From Blautia sp. (GTDB lineage Bacteria > Bacillota > Clostridia > Lachnospirales > Lachnospiraceae): 64,000 nt of DNA. A program made the translations under genes and the position numbers. This document shows positions 42,423 to 64,000 of this stretch, in pieces. The DNA lies in the NCBI GenBank assembly GCA_026169535.1, contig JAPFCU010000084.1:1-64000 (forward strand), written 5' to 3'. Numbering within the stretch: the stretch's first letter is position 1; each line of letters opens with the position of its first letter. The notes below the pieces were generated by a model that was not told where the DNA came from, made no database searches, and worked only from the letters and a program-made list of their open reading frames with translations.

Positions 42423-44309
<1,887 letters not shown>

Positions 44310-59178: not shown

Positions 59179-62100
59179 TTGAAAAAAAAGATTGAACAAA
59201 TACTCAGCGGAAAATTCAGATACGAAGAACCGGAGCTCCTTTTTTCTCAGGAGAGACTGGAAATTTCTTTGAAGGCAGGAGATGCTGTCAGAGGAGAGCT
59301 TTATCTGGGAACGGAAGATGATGAAAAAATCCAGGGCTACATAACCTCCTCACATCGAAGATTTGTACCTGGAGCCGGAAAATTTTCAGGGACAACTGTA
59401 TGTATTCCCTATGGAGCAGATGGAAGCGGTATGCTGCCAGGTGATGTCTGCAGTGGCTGGCTGTGTATTACCTCCAGTATAGGAGAGTATAAGATACCGT
59501 TTGAAATAAAAGCAGAAAAAGAGAGTTTTCAGGGTGCCGCAGGAGAATTAAACGATATGGAGAACTTTCGGAAGACAGCCAAAAAAGATTTCCGAAAAGC
59601 ATATCACCTTTTTACCGGCAGTTGTTTTTCTGCAATGATGGATCAGGCAGAAGAAAAACAAAAAGCTCTTTTTATGGGACTTTCACAGCAGCCTGTTACA
59701 TACCAGCATCTGGAAGAATTTTTTATTGCACTGAAGGAGAAGGAGCCTGTTTCAATTTCACTGAAAACTGTGAAAAATGAATTTTATGAGCTTGCAGAGT
59801 CAATACAGGAATCCTTTGATATCCAAAGGAGCGGCTGGGGACATTTAAGGCTTGATATAGAATCAGTAGGTGACTTCCTGGAGGTAGAACATCATGTAGT
59901 AACCCAGGAGGATTTTATCGGAAGTACCTGTCATATCGAATATGTGCTTCATGCAGACCGGCTTAAAGAGGGAAACCAGGTTGGGCAGATCATAGTGAGC
60001 AGTCCTTATCAGAAACTTGTGTATGAGGTAATGGCTTCCCGGGGACCTCGTGTAAGAGTAGATGTACGGGCAGAAGAAAAGCGCCACAGAATTGCATTGA
60101 TAAAAGATTATCTGGAATATCGGGAAGGCAGAATGGATTTTAACACCTGGACCGGGAGCAGCCATTTTATTTTGAATCAGCTTCATGCCTCAGGATGTGA
60201 TTATCCGGATTATCAAATGTATGAAGCATATATCGATCATCTGGAAGGTAAAGACACAGAAGCTGTTGAAATTCTGAAAAAATATGAGAATAAGGAGTTT
60301 TCCAGGGAGGAGCTGGAGCTTGCGGGTATTTACCTGTATCTTTGCAGTGTAACAGGACTGTATAGAGATAAAACGCAGGCAGTATGGAGAATCCAGAATT
60401 TTCATATGCAGAAAGCAGATAGCTTTCAGCTTTTGTGGCTTCTGATCCAGATGGACGGCGGATATAAAAAGCTTCCGTCCGAAGCCATTTTTATGATGGA
60501 GGAGCAGTTTGAGAGAGGATGTACCAGTCCGCTTTTATATATGGAGGCATGGCAGTGGATCAGCAGAGATATTTCATTGTTCCACAGACTTAGTCCTTTC
60601 TGGATTCAGGTATTTCGGTTTGCAGGAAGACGGAAACTTCTCACAGAAGAACTGGTTATGCGTCTTGCTTATCTTTCCGGTTACGAAAAGAACTTTTCAG
60701 GAAGTCTTTATCATGCTCTGGAGGCAGGATACGAACAGTTTCCTTCAGAAGATGTGCTGGAGGCGATCTGTAAATATATTATGAAGGGAAATCCAAGGAA
60801 AACTGAGTATTTTCGGTGGTTTTCTCTGGCAGTACAGCAGGGTCTCAGGCTTACCAGACTTTATGAATATTATGTGGAAACAATGGATATCACTTATCAA
60901 AGAGAGCTTCCCAAACCACTTTTAATGTATTTTAATTATAATGATAAAACACTTGGGGACAGCAGGCGTGCTTTTGTATATGCAAGCGTGATCACATATA
61001 AGGAAAAGGAGCCTCTGATCTACGAAGGCTATAAGGAAACAATGGAAAAATTTGCCCGACGCAAGCTGGCGGAAGGACAGATGGATGAAAATTATGCGGT
61101 TCTCTATCAGGAATTTTTGTTTGATCCGCAAAATACATCAGATGCAGAGCTGCTTGCACGAAACTTGTTTACCTGCCGGCTTTACTGTGATGATAAAAAA
61201 ATCCGTCAGGTCATTGTTTGTCACAGTCAGATGAAGAAAGAAGAAATTTATCCATGTGTAAAAGGTGTGGCATATCCAAGAATCTATACGGAAGATGCCG
61301 TGATTCTTTTTCAGGATGATAAGCAGCGCAGATATGCTTCTACAATCCATTATAACCTGAAAAAACTTAACGATGACAAGGCTGCGGTTTTAAAGGTATT
61401 AAAACTTGGGACAGAGGAACCGGGAGTACTGCTCCATCACTGTGAAAAAACGGGAATGAATGAGGAGAATCTGGAATATTTTTGTAAAATCACAGATTCT
61501 CCGGCTTATTCAGACCAATATAAAGATAAAATAAGAAAACGGCTGCTTGACTATTATGCGGAAAATGTGCAGGGAGATGAGCTGGATCATTATCTTCAGA
61601 AAATGGATTATAGAAAATATATAGCAGTTGACCGTCCAAAACTATTGGAAGTGCTGATCGGCCGCAGGATGTTCCGCCAGGCAATGGCGCTTGTGGAAGA
61701 ATACGGATATGAAGGATTGGATTTGGGGTGTTTGCTGAAACTTACCAGCCGCATGATACTGAAGGCAGATATGACAGAAGATGATGAACTTCTGGCTCTT
61801 GCTTCGGAAGTTTACCGGCAGGGCAAGTATGATGAAGTAATCCTTCATTATCTGATGCTATATCGGTTTGGACCGATAGATGAGCTGCTCTCCATATGGA
61901 AAAGTGCAAAAGGCTTTGAAATGGATACCTATGATCTGGAGGAGCGGATTCTTTCACTTTTGATTTTTTCTTCTGATTACAGGAAAGAGGGAGAGGCTGT
62001 TCTGGAATCCTATGTAAAGCAGTCCGGCAAAGAACGAATCATAGGTGCATACCTGACACAGGTAGCTTATGGAATCTTTGTTAAGGAATATCCAATGACA

Positions 62101-62724
62101 CGTTTTATACGGGAACGTCTGGAATATGCATGGGAAAACAGGTGGCCGTTAAATAGAATCTGCAGGCTGGCTCTTTTTATGGAACTGTCGAAAGAAAAGG
62201 AACTGAGTGAAAAATACCGGGAAATGATTCAAACATTTTTGGAAGACTGTGCCAAAAATCATATGGAATTCGGATTTTTCCGAAGATTGCCGCCGGAACT
62301 CCTCAGTCCATGGCAGCTGGATGACAAAACATTTGTAGAATGCCATGGGCATCCGGATGCAAAGGTTACCTTGTATTATGCACTGGATGCCGGTCTGGGA
62401 AAAGCACGGGAATATAAAAGTGAGCCTGTCCGTAATATTTATCAGGGGATTTTTGTTAAGACTTTTACATTATTTTATGGAGAAACGCTGCATTATTATT
62501 TCCGTATTGAAAGAAATGGAGAGGTAAAAGAAACGGCAGAACGTACAGTAACTATGAAAAAAGTAGAAGGAACACCGGGAAGCAAGTATCAGCTTTTAAA
62601 CAGGATTCTTTCTGCAAGACGCCTGGATAAGACAAAAGAAGTTAATGACGGGGTAAAACAGTATCTTTGCCAGGAGCAATATGTAAAAGAAATGTTTACC
62701 ATAGAAAAGGAACAGGAAGAATGA
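59179..62724 (+). CDS. DUF5717 family protein (1181 aa)
   Basis: This very large protein belongs to the uncharacterised DUF5717 group, known to me from Lachnospiraceae and relatives. Residues 1-115 are beta-rich (ELLFSQERLEISLKAGD, then FSGTTVCIPYGADGSGM). A second beta region near 215-295 (RSGWGHLRLDIESVGDFLEVEHHVV) is followed by some 700 residues of helical, TPR-like repeats rich in Tyr and Leu. The C-terminal ~130 residues again look beta-sandwich-like (DAKVTLYYALDAGLGK). No signal peptide or membrane helix. Start TTG 59179 follows AAAAGGTGA. Its stop overlaps the DUF5716 start by 4 nt, indicating a coupled pair. Function unknown. Confidence 0.82.
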   Translation: MKKKIEQILSGKFRYEEPELLFSQERLEISLKAGDAVRGELYLGTEDDEKIQGYITSSHRRFVPGAGKFSGTTVCIPYGADGSGMLPGDVCSGWLCITSSIGEYKIPFEIKAEKESFQGAAGELNDMENFRKTAKKDFRKAYHLFTGSCFSAMMDQAEEKQKALFMGLSQQPVTYQHLEEFFIALKEKEPVSISLKTVKNEFYELAESIQESFDIQRSGWGHLRLDIESVGDFLEVEHHVVTQEDFIGSTCHIEYVLHADRLKEGNQVGQIIVSSPYQKLVYEVMASRGPRVRVDVRAEEKRHRIALIKDYLEYREGRMDFNTWTGSSHFILNQLHASGCDYPDYQMYEAYIDHLEGKDTEAVEILKKYENKEFSREELELAGIYLYLCSVTGLYRDKTQAVWRIQNFHMQKADSFQLLWLLIQMDGGYKKLPSEAIFMMEEQFERGCTSPLLYMEAWQWISRDISLFHRLSPFWIQVFRFAGRRKLLTEELVMRLAYLSGYEKNFSGSLYHALEAGYEQFPSEDVLEAICKYIMKGNPRKTEYFRWFSLAVQQGLRLTRLYEYYVETMDITYQRELPKPLLMYFNYNDKTLGDSRRAFVYASVITYKEKEPLIYEGYKETMEKFARRKLAEGQMDENYAVLYQEFLFDPQNTSDAELLARNLFTCRLYCDDKKIRQVIVCHSQMKKEEIYPCVKGVAYPRIYTEDAVILFQDDKQRRYASTIHYNLKKLNDDKAAVLKVLKLGTEEPGVLLHHCEKTGMNEENLEYFCKITDSPAYSDQYKDKIRKRLLDYYAENVQGDELDHYLQKMDYRKYIAVDRPKLLEVLIGRRMFRQAMALVEEYGYEGLDLGCLLKLTSRMILKADMTEDDELLALASEVYRQGKYDEVILHYLMLYRFGPIDELLSIWKSAKGFEMDTYDLEERILSLLIFSSDYRKEGEAVLESYVKQSGKERIIGAYLTQVAYGIFVKEYPMTRFIRERLEYAWENRWPLNRICRLALFMELSKEKELSEKYREMIQTFLEDCAKNHMEFGFFRRLPPELLSPWQLDDKTFVECHGHPDAKVTLYYALDAGLGKAREYKSEPVRNIYQGIFVKTFTLFYGETLHYYFRIERNGEVKETAERTVTMKKVEGTPGSKYQLLNRILSARRLDKTKEVNDGVKQYLCQEQYVKEMFTIEKEQEE

Positions 62725-63968
62725 ACGAGACACGGGATTTGATTATTGGAATTGACCTTGGAAAAAAATATTCGCAGATCTGTTATTATGACCGGAAGGC
62801 GGAGGAATCCCGTTCTCTTCCGGTAAAAGTGGGAAGCAGCCTTTATGAAACACCTACCTGCCTGTGCAGACGGGCAGATCAGGGAGATTACTGTATTGGA
62901 CTGGAAGCAGAATATTTTGCCAGAGAGAAAGGTGGATTTTTAGTAGAAGATCTCTATCACATTTCCATGAGCAAAGAAAAAATCCAGGTTGCCGGAGACC
63001 AGAAAGAGCCCTGGGAGCTTCTGGGGTATTTTTTGAAGGGAATGCTGCAGTTTCTGGGTGTTTCGGAGGTAGAAAAAAATATAAAATACCTTACAGTCAC
63101 TATGGAGACTATGGATTCAATCCAGGTGAAGAACCTTCAGAAGGCAGCAGAATTTCTGGGAATCGAAGAGGAAAAATTCAGCCTTTTAGATTATGAAGAA
63201 AGCTTTTACTATTATGTTCTGACTCAGAAGATAGAGACCTGGAACCGTAGCGTGGGATGGTACAGTTTTAAAAAAGACAGGGTGCTGTTCCGTAAACTGG
63301 CAATGAGTTCAGGAACAAAACCGGTGTTTGTAAGGCTGGTGAATCCTATAGAAGCATCTCTGAGAGAACTGCCGGAAGAGAGGGACGAAGATTTTTATAA
63401 ATTTATAAAAGAAACACTGGGAACAGAGCTTTATTCCAGCATTCAGATGAATGGCGAAGGATTTGACCAGGAATGGGCGGTGAAATCAGTAAAACTTCTT
63501 TGTTATCAGAAGAGAAAAGTATTTTATGGGAATAACCTTTTTGCAGCAGGTGCATGCGGAGCCGGTGCAGAAAAATGTATTCACAGAAGACTGAAAGGAT
63601 ACCGGTATCTGGGAAGTTCCCTGGTTGTAAAAGATGTAGGAATGGAAATGCGAGTAATGGGAGCTCCGGTTTACTATCCTCTTCTTGAAGCCGGCACAAA
63701 CTGGTATGAATGCAAAGCTTCCTGCGAACTGATCCTGGACAATACGGAAGAACTGGTCTTTGTGGTGGGAACTATGGGAGAAACCGAAAAAAAACGAATG
63801 GGTATGCTGCTTCCGGGGATTCCAAAACGTCCAAATAAAACAACACGTATATCTTTGAAACTTCAGTATATTTCAAGAAAAGAATGTCAGATTACGGTAA
63901 AAGACCTGGGGTTTGGTGAGATGTTCCCGTCAAGCGGAAAGGTTTGGGAGGAGATTGTACAGTGGTAA
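62721..63968 (+). CDS. DUF5716 family protein, Hsp70/actin-like ATPase fold
   Basis: The 415-aa protein opens with an Hsp70-type phosphate-1 motif, IIGIDLGKKYSQICYY (D12, G14). Residues 121-170 (IKYLTVTMETMDSIQVKNL, LGIEEEKFSLLDYEESFYYY) align in pattern with the [14 protein letters not shown] and [11 protein letters not shown] segments of the DnaK in this window. The phosphate-2 motif (DLGGGTFD) has only a loose counterpart, SVGWYSFKKDRVLF, so ATP hydrolysis may be altered. The C-terminal third is beta-rich, as an Hsp70 substrate-binding domain would be, but without clear similarity. ATG 62721 overlaps the DUF5717 stop (ATGA); 18 more codons are open upstream. Role unknown. Confidence 0.8.
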   Translation: MNETRDLIIGIDLGKKYSQICYYDRKAEESRSLPVKVGSSLYETPTCLCRRADQGDYCIGLEAEYFAREKGGFLVEDLYHISMSKEKIQVAGDQKEPWELLGYFLKGMLQFLGVSEVEKNIKYLTVTMETMDSIQVKNLQKAAEFLGIEEEKFSLLDYEESFYYYVLTQKIETWNRSVGWYSFKKDRVLFRKLAMSSGTKPVFVRLVNPIEASLRELPEERDEDFYKFIKETLGTELYSSIQMNGEGFDQEWAVKSVKLLCYQKRKVFYGNNLFAAGACGAGAEKCIHRRLKGYRYLGSSLVVKDVGMEMRVMGAPVYYPLLEAGTNWYECKASCELILDNTEELVFVVGTMGETEKKRMGMLLPGIPKRPNKTTRISLKLQYISRKECQITVKDLGFGEMFPSSGKVWEEIVQW

Positions 63969-63981
63969 GGGAGGAAGACTT

Positions 63982-64000
63982 TTGAGCGGATATATTTTAT
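63982..64000 (+). CDS. Start of a further gene, cut by the window end
   Basis: GGGAGG (63969-63974) is followed 7 nt later by TTG and the codons for MSGYIL. Six codons are visible. Position, spacing and strand suggest the third gene of the DUF5717-DUF5716 operon. Confidence 0.5.

Follow-up and report, generated by a model that had tools for sequence, protein, structure and literature searches.

Genes for DUF5717 and DUF5716 proteins were present in all 33 sampled genomes of the Lachnospiraceae, yet these proteins have no assigned function. What the pair does, together with the gene which follows it, is the question raised by this locus of a Blautia sp. The window, i.e., the whole stretch of DNA analysed, comprises 64,000 nucleotides. 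An earlier note on it had proposed a chaperone- or scaffold-like machine, in which the giant repeat protein DUF5717 presents clients to a divergent Hsp70, DUF5716, or is remodelled by it.

Organization of the locus

The three genes appear to form one operon. The features referred to below are the following ("full operon" denotes the longer gene set of related families, see next section):

59179..62724, + strand: DUF5717 gene, TTG start, 1181 amino acids, PF18984 and PF18983; giant putative scaffold
59179..60078, + strand: N-terminal region of DUF5717 (approximately residues 1-300), which aligns with tandem homologous segments of full-operon orthologues; limits approximate
60181..60465, + strand: TPR-like stretch of DUF5717, residues 335-429 (profile numbering starts from the window protein), profile match to AimR
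62721..63968, + strand: DUF5716 gene, ATG start, 415 amino acids; predicted pseudo-Hsp70 with an NBD-like part without subdomain IIB and an SBD-beta-like C-terminus
62748..62774, + strand: phosphate-1-like motif GIDLGKKYS of DUF5716, with DnaK T11 and T12 replaced by K and K
63261..63287, + strand: site of the lost phosphate-2 loop, DUF5716 residues 181-189, from the alignment to DnaK
63982..64000, + strand: beginning of the gene for the TPR protein (third gene, 260 codons), TTG start; the gene ends outside the window, at contig position 64764 (L002:5983-6765)
42429..44309: housekeeping dnaK, in the same window as the trio

As the earlier note had stated, the two large genes overlap as ATGA, with the ATG of DUF5716 (62721) over the stop of DUF5717 (62724), and the third gene begins 13 nt past the DUF5716 stop. 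Extension of the sequence past position 64,000 identified the product of the latter as a TPR protein by its Pfam matches (TPR names). For its N-terminal domain two candidates were considered and not adopted: DUF5752 was weak (2 of 27 members, best value 0.0058), and OrfY gave a whole-sequence E of 0.0027 but 0.83 for the best single stretch. Behind the trio a two-TM protein was encoded in 26 of the 33 genomes of the window's family; nothing above the Pfam cut-off was obtained with the five sequences scanned, that of L102 among them.

The window proteins are members of the Pfam families DUF5717 (PF18984, E=1.8e-267, residues 1-865; PF18983, 1.6e-99, residues 868-1173) and DUF5716_C (PF18980, 2.8e-99, covering residues 124-415 only). 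DUF and TPR names were the only Pfam results for the window proteins; the descriptions of the three DUF models mention neither a function nor an Hsp70/GrpE operon, and those window proteins that were run against NCBIfam and, as single sequences, against the PDB gave no match. In the N-terminus of DUF5717, where the earlier note placed one of its two putative terminal beta domains, comparison of profiles from full-operon orthologues gave support for tandem homologous segments; the alignment (A10) had 15 rows, the last being window positions 59179-60138, and L091:3121-4275, an S-adenosylmethionine synthase, was left out. Of the long helical repeats which had been read into DUF5717, one TPR-like stretch was recovered, namely residues 335-429, which matched AimR in the PDB profile search (E=5.9e-5).

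The full operon in related families

Other families of this GTDB order have the genes arranged as DUF5717 (often split), an Hsp70 (Hsp70A), a GrpE-domain protein, DUF5716, a second Hsp70 (Hsp70C), an Hsp70-vWA fusion, the TPR protein and sometimes the two-TM protein. DUF5716 was reached in 23 of 24 out-of-family loci, all 23 with DUF5717-Hsp70A-GrpE-DUF5716-Hsp70C and 22 of them with Hsp70-vWA next; these 24 whole-region loci were chosen by hand, mostly with DUF5717 and DUF5716 on one contig, and over a wider set DUF5717 frequently lies elsewhere. DUF5716 and the GrpE-like protein were at most 15 kb apart in 70 of 72 cases, and every genome with the specific GrpE-like protein (85/85) also had DUF5716 or DUF5717. 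The chaperone context suspected in the earlier note is real, since the genes of the trio occur in these families alongside those for a GrpE-domain protein and for three Hsp70s whose catalytic residues are intact. In G003, the nearest full-operon relative in the tree (see below), the Hsp70-vWA and TPR frames are split.

At the window's locus 5 of the 8 full-operon genes are missing, and no Hsp70 or GrpE gene remains at the locus in the window's family. The GrpE-like protein of the full-operon type was found in none of 33 family genomes and the Hsp70-vWA fusion in none of 60; neither Hsp70A nor Hsp70C was present at the family loci. On a broader scale, the GrpE-like profile, which was positive within the order, retrieved nothing at 1e-12 from 348 phylum-wide genomes (five of this order, own family included), and the Hsp70-vWA profile nothing at 1e-180, a cut-off without positive control, from 245 class-wide genomes (eleven belonged to this order, and nine of the eleven to the window's family).

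Relationship of DUF5716 to Hsp70

A profile built from 48 DUF5716 sequences matched full-length DnaK in the PDB at 3e-14 (positions 9-405), and Ssz1 over positions 9-63 only (E=0.0022). The profile from 33 window-type sequences alone gave six matches below 0.01, all to DnaK, the best at 1.8e-4 and restricted to the NBD part. The search against Hsp70 structures suggested earlier thus returned DnaK first, by sequence profile. The full-operon DUF5716 of L080 matched both PF18980 (1.5e-26) and HSP70 (1.4e-17). The motif GIDLGKKYSQI (residues 10-20), which had been taken for phosphate-1, was aligned with phosphate-1 of DnaK, and the DnaK-like pattern noticed at residues 121-170 was aligned with DnaK from about residue 135 on. 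The C-terminal part was aligned with SBD-beta of DnaK by the mixed profile and MAFFT; the window-type profile fell short of it. Soon past this part the window protein stops, which leaves no room for an alpha lid. From these comparisons DUF5716 is identified as a relative of Hsp70 by descent, with a retained SBD-beta-like domain as its putative client-binding part.

The catalytic positions of active Hsp70, which we take to be K70, E171, T199 and the phosphate-2 loop DLGGGT (DnaK numbering), were compared in 15 full-operon and 33 window-type DUF5716 sequences aligned to DnaK (A6). The catalytic Lys was gone in 48/48 and the Glu in 46/48. K70 was kept in neither type (0/15 and 0/33, respectively), E171 in 2/15 and 0/33, and T199 in 0/15 and 1/33; among window-type sequences G196 and G198 were each kept in two. 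The phosphate-2 loop had been described as diverged, and the change goes beyond that: D194, G196, G197, G198, T199 and D201 of DnaK are S, K, K, D, R and L in the window protein. The IIB region had a median length of 14 residues in window-type DUF5716, compared with 80 in full-operon DUF5716 and 78-95 in Hsp70A, Hsp70C and Hsp70-vWA. All 14 positions examined, including K70, E171 and T199, were kept in Hsp70A (15/15), Hsp70C (15/15) and Hsp70-vWA (11/11). By this alignment DUF5716 is a degenerate pseudo-Hsp70 without the normal catalytic residues, and the window type is probably non-ATP-hydrolysing. Window-type sequences retained G6 (33/33), D8 (28/33), D194 (18/33), G197 (11/33) and G341 (33/33); with D8, D194, G197 and G341 kept, some nucleotide binding could still be possible.

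In the tree (56 of 91 rows, with two DnaK as the sole outgroup and 13 rows of odd composition) the DUF5716 clade (100/100) was sister to Hsp70C (98/96), and window-type DUF5716 was nested among the full-operon sequences, beside G003 (100/98). A single clade of full-operon DUF5716 was rejected (p-AU 0.0006). Long branches occurred, e.g., that of the full-operon sequence L089 (2.24), which was placed just outside the window-type clade. Since DUF5716 appears as a degenerate sister of Hsp70C, with the window type nested in the full-operon types, the trio is most simply regarded as a reduced form from which the ATPases and the exchange factor were lost.

Conservation of the trio

The linkage of DUF5717 and DUF5716 in the Lachnospiraceae, which the earlier note had made a test of its proposal, held in 33/33 family genomes of an order-wide draw. 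The TPR gene followed the pair in 32 of these, and that of G242 lay at the end of another contig. Outside the family the two co-occurred in 81 of 92 genomes having either; their linkage there was partial, since among 69 genomes with both places recorded they were at most 15 kb apart in 37, whereas one genome had them at a distance of 40 kb and 31 had them on separate contigs, partly owing to assembly fragmentation. Values of dN/dS were 0.037-0.114 in 9 of 12 close comparisons where computable, with dS of 1-2.3, i.e., near saturation; conservation of the locus is therefore not due to chance, and the trio is under purifying selection.

Possible function and alternative explanations

It is rather probable, in our opinion, that the trio descends by reduction from a dedicated chaperone operon with several Hsp70s. 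At the stem of the window's family the ATPases and the exchange factor would have been lost, while the non-catalytic subunits would have gone on serving a function of their own. Synteny is in line with this descent: next after the locus comes a valyl-tRNA synthetase gene, both in L089 (family f22) and in three genomes from two genera of the window's family, one of them checked by Pfam. DUF5716, with its SBD-beta-like domain, could be a constitutive, nucleotide-independent binder of clients or of DUF5717; DUF5717 (tandem domains and a TPR-like solenoid) and the TPR protein might form the scaffold which chooses clients, and the two-TM protein may anchor the assembly in the membrane in most of the family. 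Any ATP-driven work still needed would come from the housekeeping DnaK/GrpE, as non-canonical Ssz1 supports canonical Ssb in yeast. The trio would thus be likely to act, without ATP, as a scaffold or client adaptor, and it may serve housekeeping DnaK in this way. The wider proposal, that the whole family (33/33 sampled) runs an ATPase-free, Hsp70-derived machine, in which three Hsp70 motors and the exchange factor were lost and the pseudo-Hsp70, the giant scaffold and the TPR protein act as a nucleotide-independent, often membrane-anchored client-binding complex, is tentative; we regard it as quite possible, short of probable.

The machine envisaged in the earlier note could also be taken literally, with DUF5716 as an active, merely divergent Hsp70 ATPase driving DUF5717. 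The phosphate-1 core (G6, D8) and G341 are indeed kept and the protein is strongly conserved, but window-type sequences have almost entirely lost K70, E171, T199, G196 and G198, their IIB region is reduced, and the same positions are intact in 41/41 aligned sequences of the three neighbouring paralogues. Hsp70 descent thus stands, whereas an ATP-driven machine from the window's genes alone does not; remodelling of DUF5717 driven by ATP hydrolysis is unlikely, given the loss of Lys (48/48) and Glu (46/48), and this reading as a whole is very unlikely. Even less credible is decay of the trio to a remnant that is functionless today, to which the five missing genes and the split frames in G003 could point; the low dN/dS and the presence of DUF5717, DUF5716 and the TPR gene in 33/33 family genomes of the draw speak against it.

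A possible though doubtful alternative is that the trio regulates housekeeping DnaK or serves it as a co-chaperone, the pseudo-Hsp70 acting like an exchange factor or as a holdase (Hsp110- or Ssz1-like) and the TPR protein and DUF5717 as client adaptors; it overlaps with the reduced-descendant explanation, of which it is the DnaK-dependent variant. It is favoured by the occurrence of the same subunits beside intact Hsp70s and a GrpE-domain protein in related genomes, by the match of the DUF5716 profile to Ssz1 and by the known precedent of Ssz1/Zuo1 with Ssb. However, when the dedicated Hsp70s disappeared, dependence on any Hsp70 may just as well have ended with them, and no J-domain ORF was found at the loci searched, though dnaK lies in the same window: no ORF of L001-L099, and none of the genes called at the loci, matched residues 1-75 of E. 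coli DnaJ at E up to 1 (L128-L146 left out). A biological-conflict (immunity-like) system is quite unlikely. Its parts list is strikingly like the HSP70-GrpE theme of GAP1-N2 GTPase systems (PMC7159879), but none of the three window proteins hit a PADLOC 2.0.0 family at E up to 1, presence in 33/33 family genomes is unlike mobile defence genes, no GTPase was recognised in the conserved gene set (genes scanned or read, without a GAP1-type GTPase profile), and DUF5716 keeps its SBD-beta-like part.

Comparison with known systems

With Hsp70/DnaK (PF00012) DUF5716 shares an NBD-like core and an SBD-beta-like domain, and it groups with Hsp70C; it differs by lacking the catalytic Lys, the Glu and most of the phosphate-2 loop, and the window type lacks also IIB and room for an alpha lid. 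The GAP1-N2 theme, as described by Kaur et al. 2020 (PMC7159879), comprises HSP70, GrpE and an FNIII protein that carries a DnaJ or TPR fusion, with a second HSP70 without peptide-binding domain in a subset. Common to both are an HSP70, GrpE, an altered second HSP70 and a TPR-bearing repeat protein. In contrast, no GTPase was recognised here among genes scanned or read, the full operon has three Hsp70s whose catalytic residues are kept plus the pseudo-Hsp70, with vWA fused to Hsp70, it was found only within one order in the draws made, and the window's family is without Hsp70 or GrpE at the locus. The ribosome-associated complex with Ssz1 likewise has a non-canonical Hsp70 partnering a canonical one; it is eukaryotic, however, and no J-domain protein was found at the loci searched here.

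A pseudo-Hsp70 placed within a conserved operon of three Hsp70s with their catalytic residues kept, a GrpE-domain fusion and a vWA-Hsp70 fusion offers a testable handle. The loci resemble a natural deletion series, with the full machine in related species, a stripped one in the window's family and the smallest in the window's genus, and one could ask with it what role an Hsp70 has after ATP hydrolysis ends. If the proposal is true, an ATPase-free machine of this kind in bacteria would be to the Hsp70 fold what pseudokinases are to that of kinases.

The trio and its boundaries

The window corresponds to C7:1-64000 of a genome (G000) of 2.61 Mb in 85 contigs, and its contig runs on to 85,505 bp. 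Extension past 64,000, as suggested in the earlier note, identified the third gene as that of a TPR protein; the ATGA overlap of the two DUF genes and the start of the third gene 13 nt behind the DUF5716 stop were found as described there.

42429-44309: dnaK, in the same window
59179-62724, + strand: DUF5717, TTG start, 1181 aa
62721-63968, + strand: DUF5716, 415 aa, start overlapping the DUF5717 stop as ATGA (62721-62724)
63982-64764 (contig positions), + strand: TPR protein, TTG start, 260 residues, ending beyond the window

The TPR repeats (TPR_2, 8.5e-9) lie C-terminal to a part of about 110 residues, for which Pfam yielded no family match and in which P15, E29, E30 and W54 are nearly invariant. 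The gene is followed on the contig by an ORF which we take to be class II aldolase-like. The nearest named matches of DUF5716 were from a Lachnospiraceae bacterium MAG (92% identity) and two Blautia (86% and 85%), followed by Candidatus Blautia and Choladousia MAGs (75-77%). Values of dN/dS for the trio were 0.037-0.114 in the 9 of 12 comparisons with four close relatives in which synonymous sites were unsaturated, dS being already 1-2.3 in those nine.

Relationship of DUF5716 to Hsp70

A PDB search with a single DUF5716 sequence gave no match. A profile of 48 DUF5716 proteins aligned with DnaK across positions 9-405 (E=3e-14); the best 60 of 75 sequences (E up to 1) comprised 59 with Hsp70-family names and one putative uncharacterized protein. 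Since this profile included 13 sequences from genomes with a longer form of the locus (full operon, see below), the search was repeated with 33 window-type sequences only, i.e., those of the trio form (alignment A6: the window, eight named relatives, 23 genomes of the family and L047, a locus from G167 of another family; these 33 sequences are distinct from the 33 genomes counted below). Six matches fell below 0.01, all of them DnaK (best 1.8e-4) and reaching over the initial 130-200 positions or so; a seventh, at 0.9, was unrelated. The Hsp70 relationship proposed in the earlier note is thus upheld by the window-type sequences themselves.

Residues were compared in E. coli DnaK numbering, their functional roles (K70, E171, T199 and others) being assumed. 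Among the 33 window-type sequences G6 and G341 are retained in all and D8 in 28; K70, E171 and T11 are absent throughout and T12 is present once. The phosphate-2 loop, noted before as diverged, is mostly lost (G196 2/33, G198 2/33, T199 1/33, D201 1/33), with partial survival of D194 (18/33) and G197 (11/33). The region of subdomain IIB has a median of 14 residues, versus 80 in 15 full-operon DUF5716, which already are without K70 (0/15) and T199 (0/15) and mostly without E171 (2/15). The C-terminal part aligns with SBD-beta of DnaK. Because of the DnaK matches, the lost residues, the shrunken IIB and this alignment, DUF5716 is, by sequence, a pseudo-Hsp70.

The full operon in other families

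In 246 genomes drawn from the GTDB order of the window (match: E up to 0.001), DUF5716_C was found in 117 and DUF5717_N in 122, with 109 and 120, respectively, above the curated cut-offs. In f1, the family of the window, each was present in 33 genomes, taken to be all f1 genomes of the draw, since the near-to-far lists of genomes without match begin outside f1. Outside f1, other genes intervene between DUF5717 and DUF5716, as in locus L080 of genome G038.

Gene order at L080
DUF5717: 1326 aa
Hsp70A: PF00012, 5e-76
GrpE-domain protein (GrpE-like): 644 aa, GrpE domain C-terminal (3e-13)
DUF5716: PF18980, 1.5e-26, and HSP70, 1.4e-17
Hsp70C: HSP70, 7e-63, with a DUF5716_C-like end (7.5e-10)
Hsp70-vWA fusion: HSP70, 4.5e-96, and VWA, 1.9e-10
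TPR protein: related to the third gene of the window (43 bits)

Whole stretches of 24 loci outside f1 were chosen by hand, 15 (L080-L090, L095-L097, L099) and a further nine (L129-L136, L138), for the most part from contigs carrying both a DUF5717 and a DUF5716 match; they therefore overstate the linkage of DUF5717. The order DUF5717-Hsp70A-GrpE-DUF5716-Hsp70C was present in all 23 loci reaching DUF5716, a few with extra ORFs between; in L138 the contig ends past the GrpE-like gene. DUF5716 was weakly recognised (22-32 bits) in L134-L136. Hsp70-vWA came next in 22 of the 23 (exception: L084), followed in 16 of those 22 by the TPR protein; in L087, L095 and L096 the stretch stops short of the TPR gene, and a TPR match occurs at a more distant place on that contig. 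Many of the species have two separate genes in place of a single DUF5717. All 14 residues examined were kept in Hsp70A (15/15), Hsp70C (15/15) and Hsp70-vWA (11/11, leaving out four loci with absent, cut or split copies).

By profile, no TPR protein was recognised behind Hsp70-vWA in L134-L136 (genomes G131, G069 and G190), where a gap of about 960 nt before the gene of a further component, the two-TM protein, occupies the expected TPR site; its product, if any, would be too diverged for the profile. In G003, a genome of family f4 whose DUF5716 is, in the tree below, the closest of the full-operon forms to the window type, the Hsp70-vWA and TPR matches each extend across two frames (L128:8205-15353, L090). 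Its GrpE-like protein is short at 279 aa, and the profile match contains one stop; these are either assembly errors or a machine caught in mid-decay.

Co-occurrence and linkage

Counts were made from hand-copied tables, with GrpE-like accepted at E below 1e-10. Outside f1, DUF5716 was present in 84 genomes, DUF5717 in 89, GrpE-like in 85 and the TPR protein in 82; either DUF occurred in 92, both in 81 and all four proteins in 73. None of the 85 GrpE-like genomes lacked both DUFs, and seven DUF-bearing genomes were without GrpE-like. The profile search did not find GrpE-like in any of the 33 f1 genomes; seven matches there (9.6e-4 to 4.2e-5) covered no more than the end that this protein has in common with canonical GrpE, or the stretch 250-401. 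Hsp70-vWA was not found in 60 f1 genomes (14 of which miss the mark of 90% completeness or 5% contamination), the matches ending by position 556 of the 692-position model, where the vWA domain occupies about 504-650. At the f1 loci, to which inspection for these two was confined, there was neither Hsp70A nor Hsp70C.

DUF5716 and GrpE-like were within 15 kb in 70 of the 72 genomes with both places known. DUF5717 and DUF5716, a coupled pair in the earlier note, lie together in f1; outside f1, among 69 genomes with both places known, the two were within 15 kb in 37, 40 kb apart in one and on different contigs in 31, part of which is due to assembly fragmentation. DUF5717 is thus less tightly linked there, a point against regarding the two as a strict unit outside f1.

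A window-type trio was also seen in G167 (L137, contig C40), the sole genome of family f8 with a DUF5716_C match. As this assembly, assigned to f8, is 86% complete and 5% contaminated, either transfer or contamination is indicated.

Phylogeny and direction of change

A maximum-likelihood tree of 56 hand-chosen sequences from 91 aligned Hsp70-type proteins, rooted on two DnaK (flags: two long end branches, 13 rows of odd composition), recovered Hsp70A (100/100), Hsp70C (98/96), Hsp70-vWA (100/100) and DUF5716 (100/100) as groups, with DUF5716 sister to Hsp70C (joint branch 100/100). Window-type DUF5716 formed one clade (100/99) inside full-operon DUF5716, beside that of G003 (100/98); L089, a locus with a long branch, fell outside this grouping. 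A single clade of full-operon DUF5716 was rejected (p-AU 0.0006). Read directly, Hsp70C would have duplicated and decayed into DUF5716 before the families split; the lineage leading to f1 would then have lost Hsp70A, GrpE-like, Hsp70C and Hsp70-vWA, and the genus of the window, like a few others, the two-TM protein. The locus is followed by a valyl-tRNA synthetase gene in L089 and likewise in three genomes from two genera of f1 (one Pfam-checked), which fits loss in place. Later gain of the whole gene set in all other families would be a less simple account than such loss.

Possible mode of action

The full operon comprises three intact-looking Hsp70s, one pseudo-Hsp70, two repeat proteins, a vWA domain and a GrpE-domain protein of its own; such a machine has the appearance of a chaperone or assembly factor devoted to particular clients. 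In f1 just the apparently non-catalytic subunits are left at the locus, yet conserved; these would have to act without an ATPase or with a borrowed one. The f1 trio is probably a reduced system which would bind clients as a nucleotide-independent scaffold. Docking of the trio to the housekeeping DnaK, the main variant and one overlapping with the scaffold, is possible but less likely. The dnaK gene lies in the same window. In yeast, a canonical Hsp70 is reported to be assisted by a non-canonical one.

DUF5717 was not mentioned, and DUF5716 appeared in incidental use only, in the literature searched, which takes in few subscription papers or preprints. The closest published parts list found was that of the GAP1-N2 GTPase systems of Kaur et al. 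2020 (PMC7159879). Those systems contain HSP70, GrpE and FNIII-TPR/DnaJ proteins and, in some cases, a further HSP70 that lacks the peptide-binding domain, but are GTPase-centred. Nothing on the full operon was found among the matches listed, from mostly open literature, or in passages of a survey of DnaK paralogues (PMC11019930).

DUF5717 architecture and neighbouring genes

At the DUF5717 N-terminus three adjoining segments, each some 90-100 residues long and delimited by the L080 row of a 15-row alignment, were alike (hhalign 94.9%, 93.1% and 45.7%), i.e., they would be tandem domains, perhaps Ig-like by their pattern; a separate scan touched Cep192_D6 in 2 of 14 rows (best 0.1). Further on, positions 335-429 match the TPR part of AimR (5.9e-5). 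An 853-aa DUF5717 in G102 (L091:4387-6948) matches the family from profile position 279 and is without the tandem segments.

Directly behind the TPR gene, 26 of the 33 f1 genomes encode a protein of usually 390-424 aa (a member from L094 in the automatic cluster was a false join and was excluded). Simple hydropathy gives it two to three hydrophobic segments, which we read as a putative two-TM hairpin, between conserved charged, coiled-coil-looking stretches; five sequences scanned gave no Pfam match above cut-off. In families f4, f22 and f7, too, the gene stands behind the TPR gene. Among 21 chosen genomes the protein was found in 13: G242 and 12 of the 13 full-operon genomes (G243 being the exception), whether at the locus or in another place; it was not found in the seven f1 genomes searched that have no copy at the locus, including that of the window. 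Four of eight unlinked copies have a member of the valyl-tRNA synthetase cluster as neighbour (one Pfam-checked).

Near the unlinked two-TM gene a protein which we take to be zinc-ribbon-like and TPR-like (L139:919-2271) recurs in five genomes (L139, L140, L143-L145), in four of them together with the valyl-tRNA synthetase cluster; it is a possible further partner. In G038, short, regularly spaced repeats (L139:8609-10331), seen in translations, adjoin the unlinked two-TM gene, and the genes beside them are presumably CRISPR-associated. An Hsp90 gene (L092:1931-3979, PF00183, 1.7e-57) is directly upstream of DUF5717 in G234; a member of the Hsp90 cluster, assigned by similarity cluster only, has the same position in G222 (L124), and one lies one gene further away in G166.
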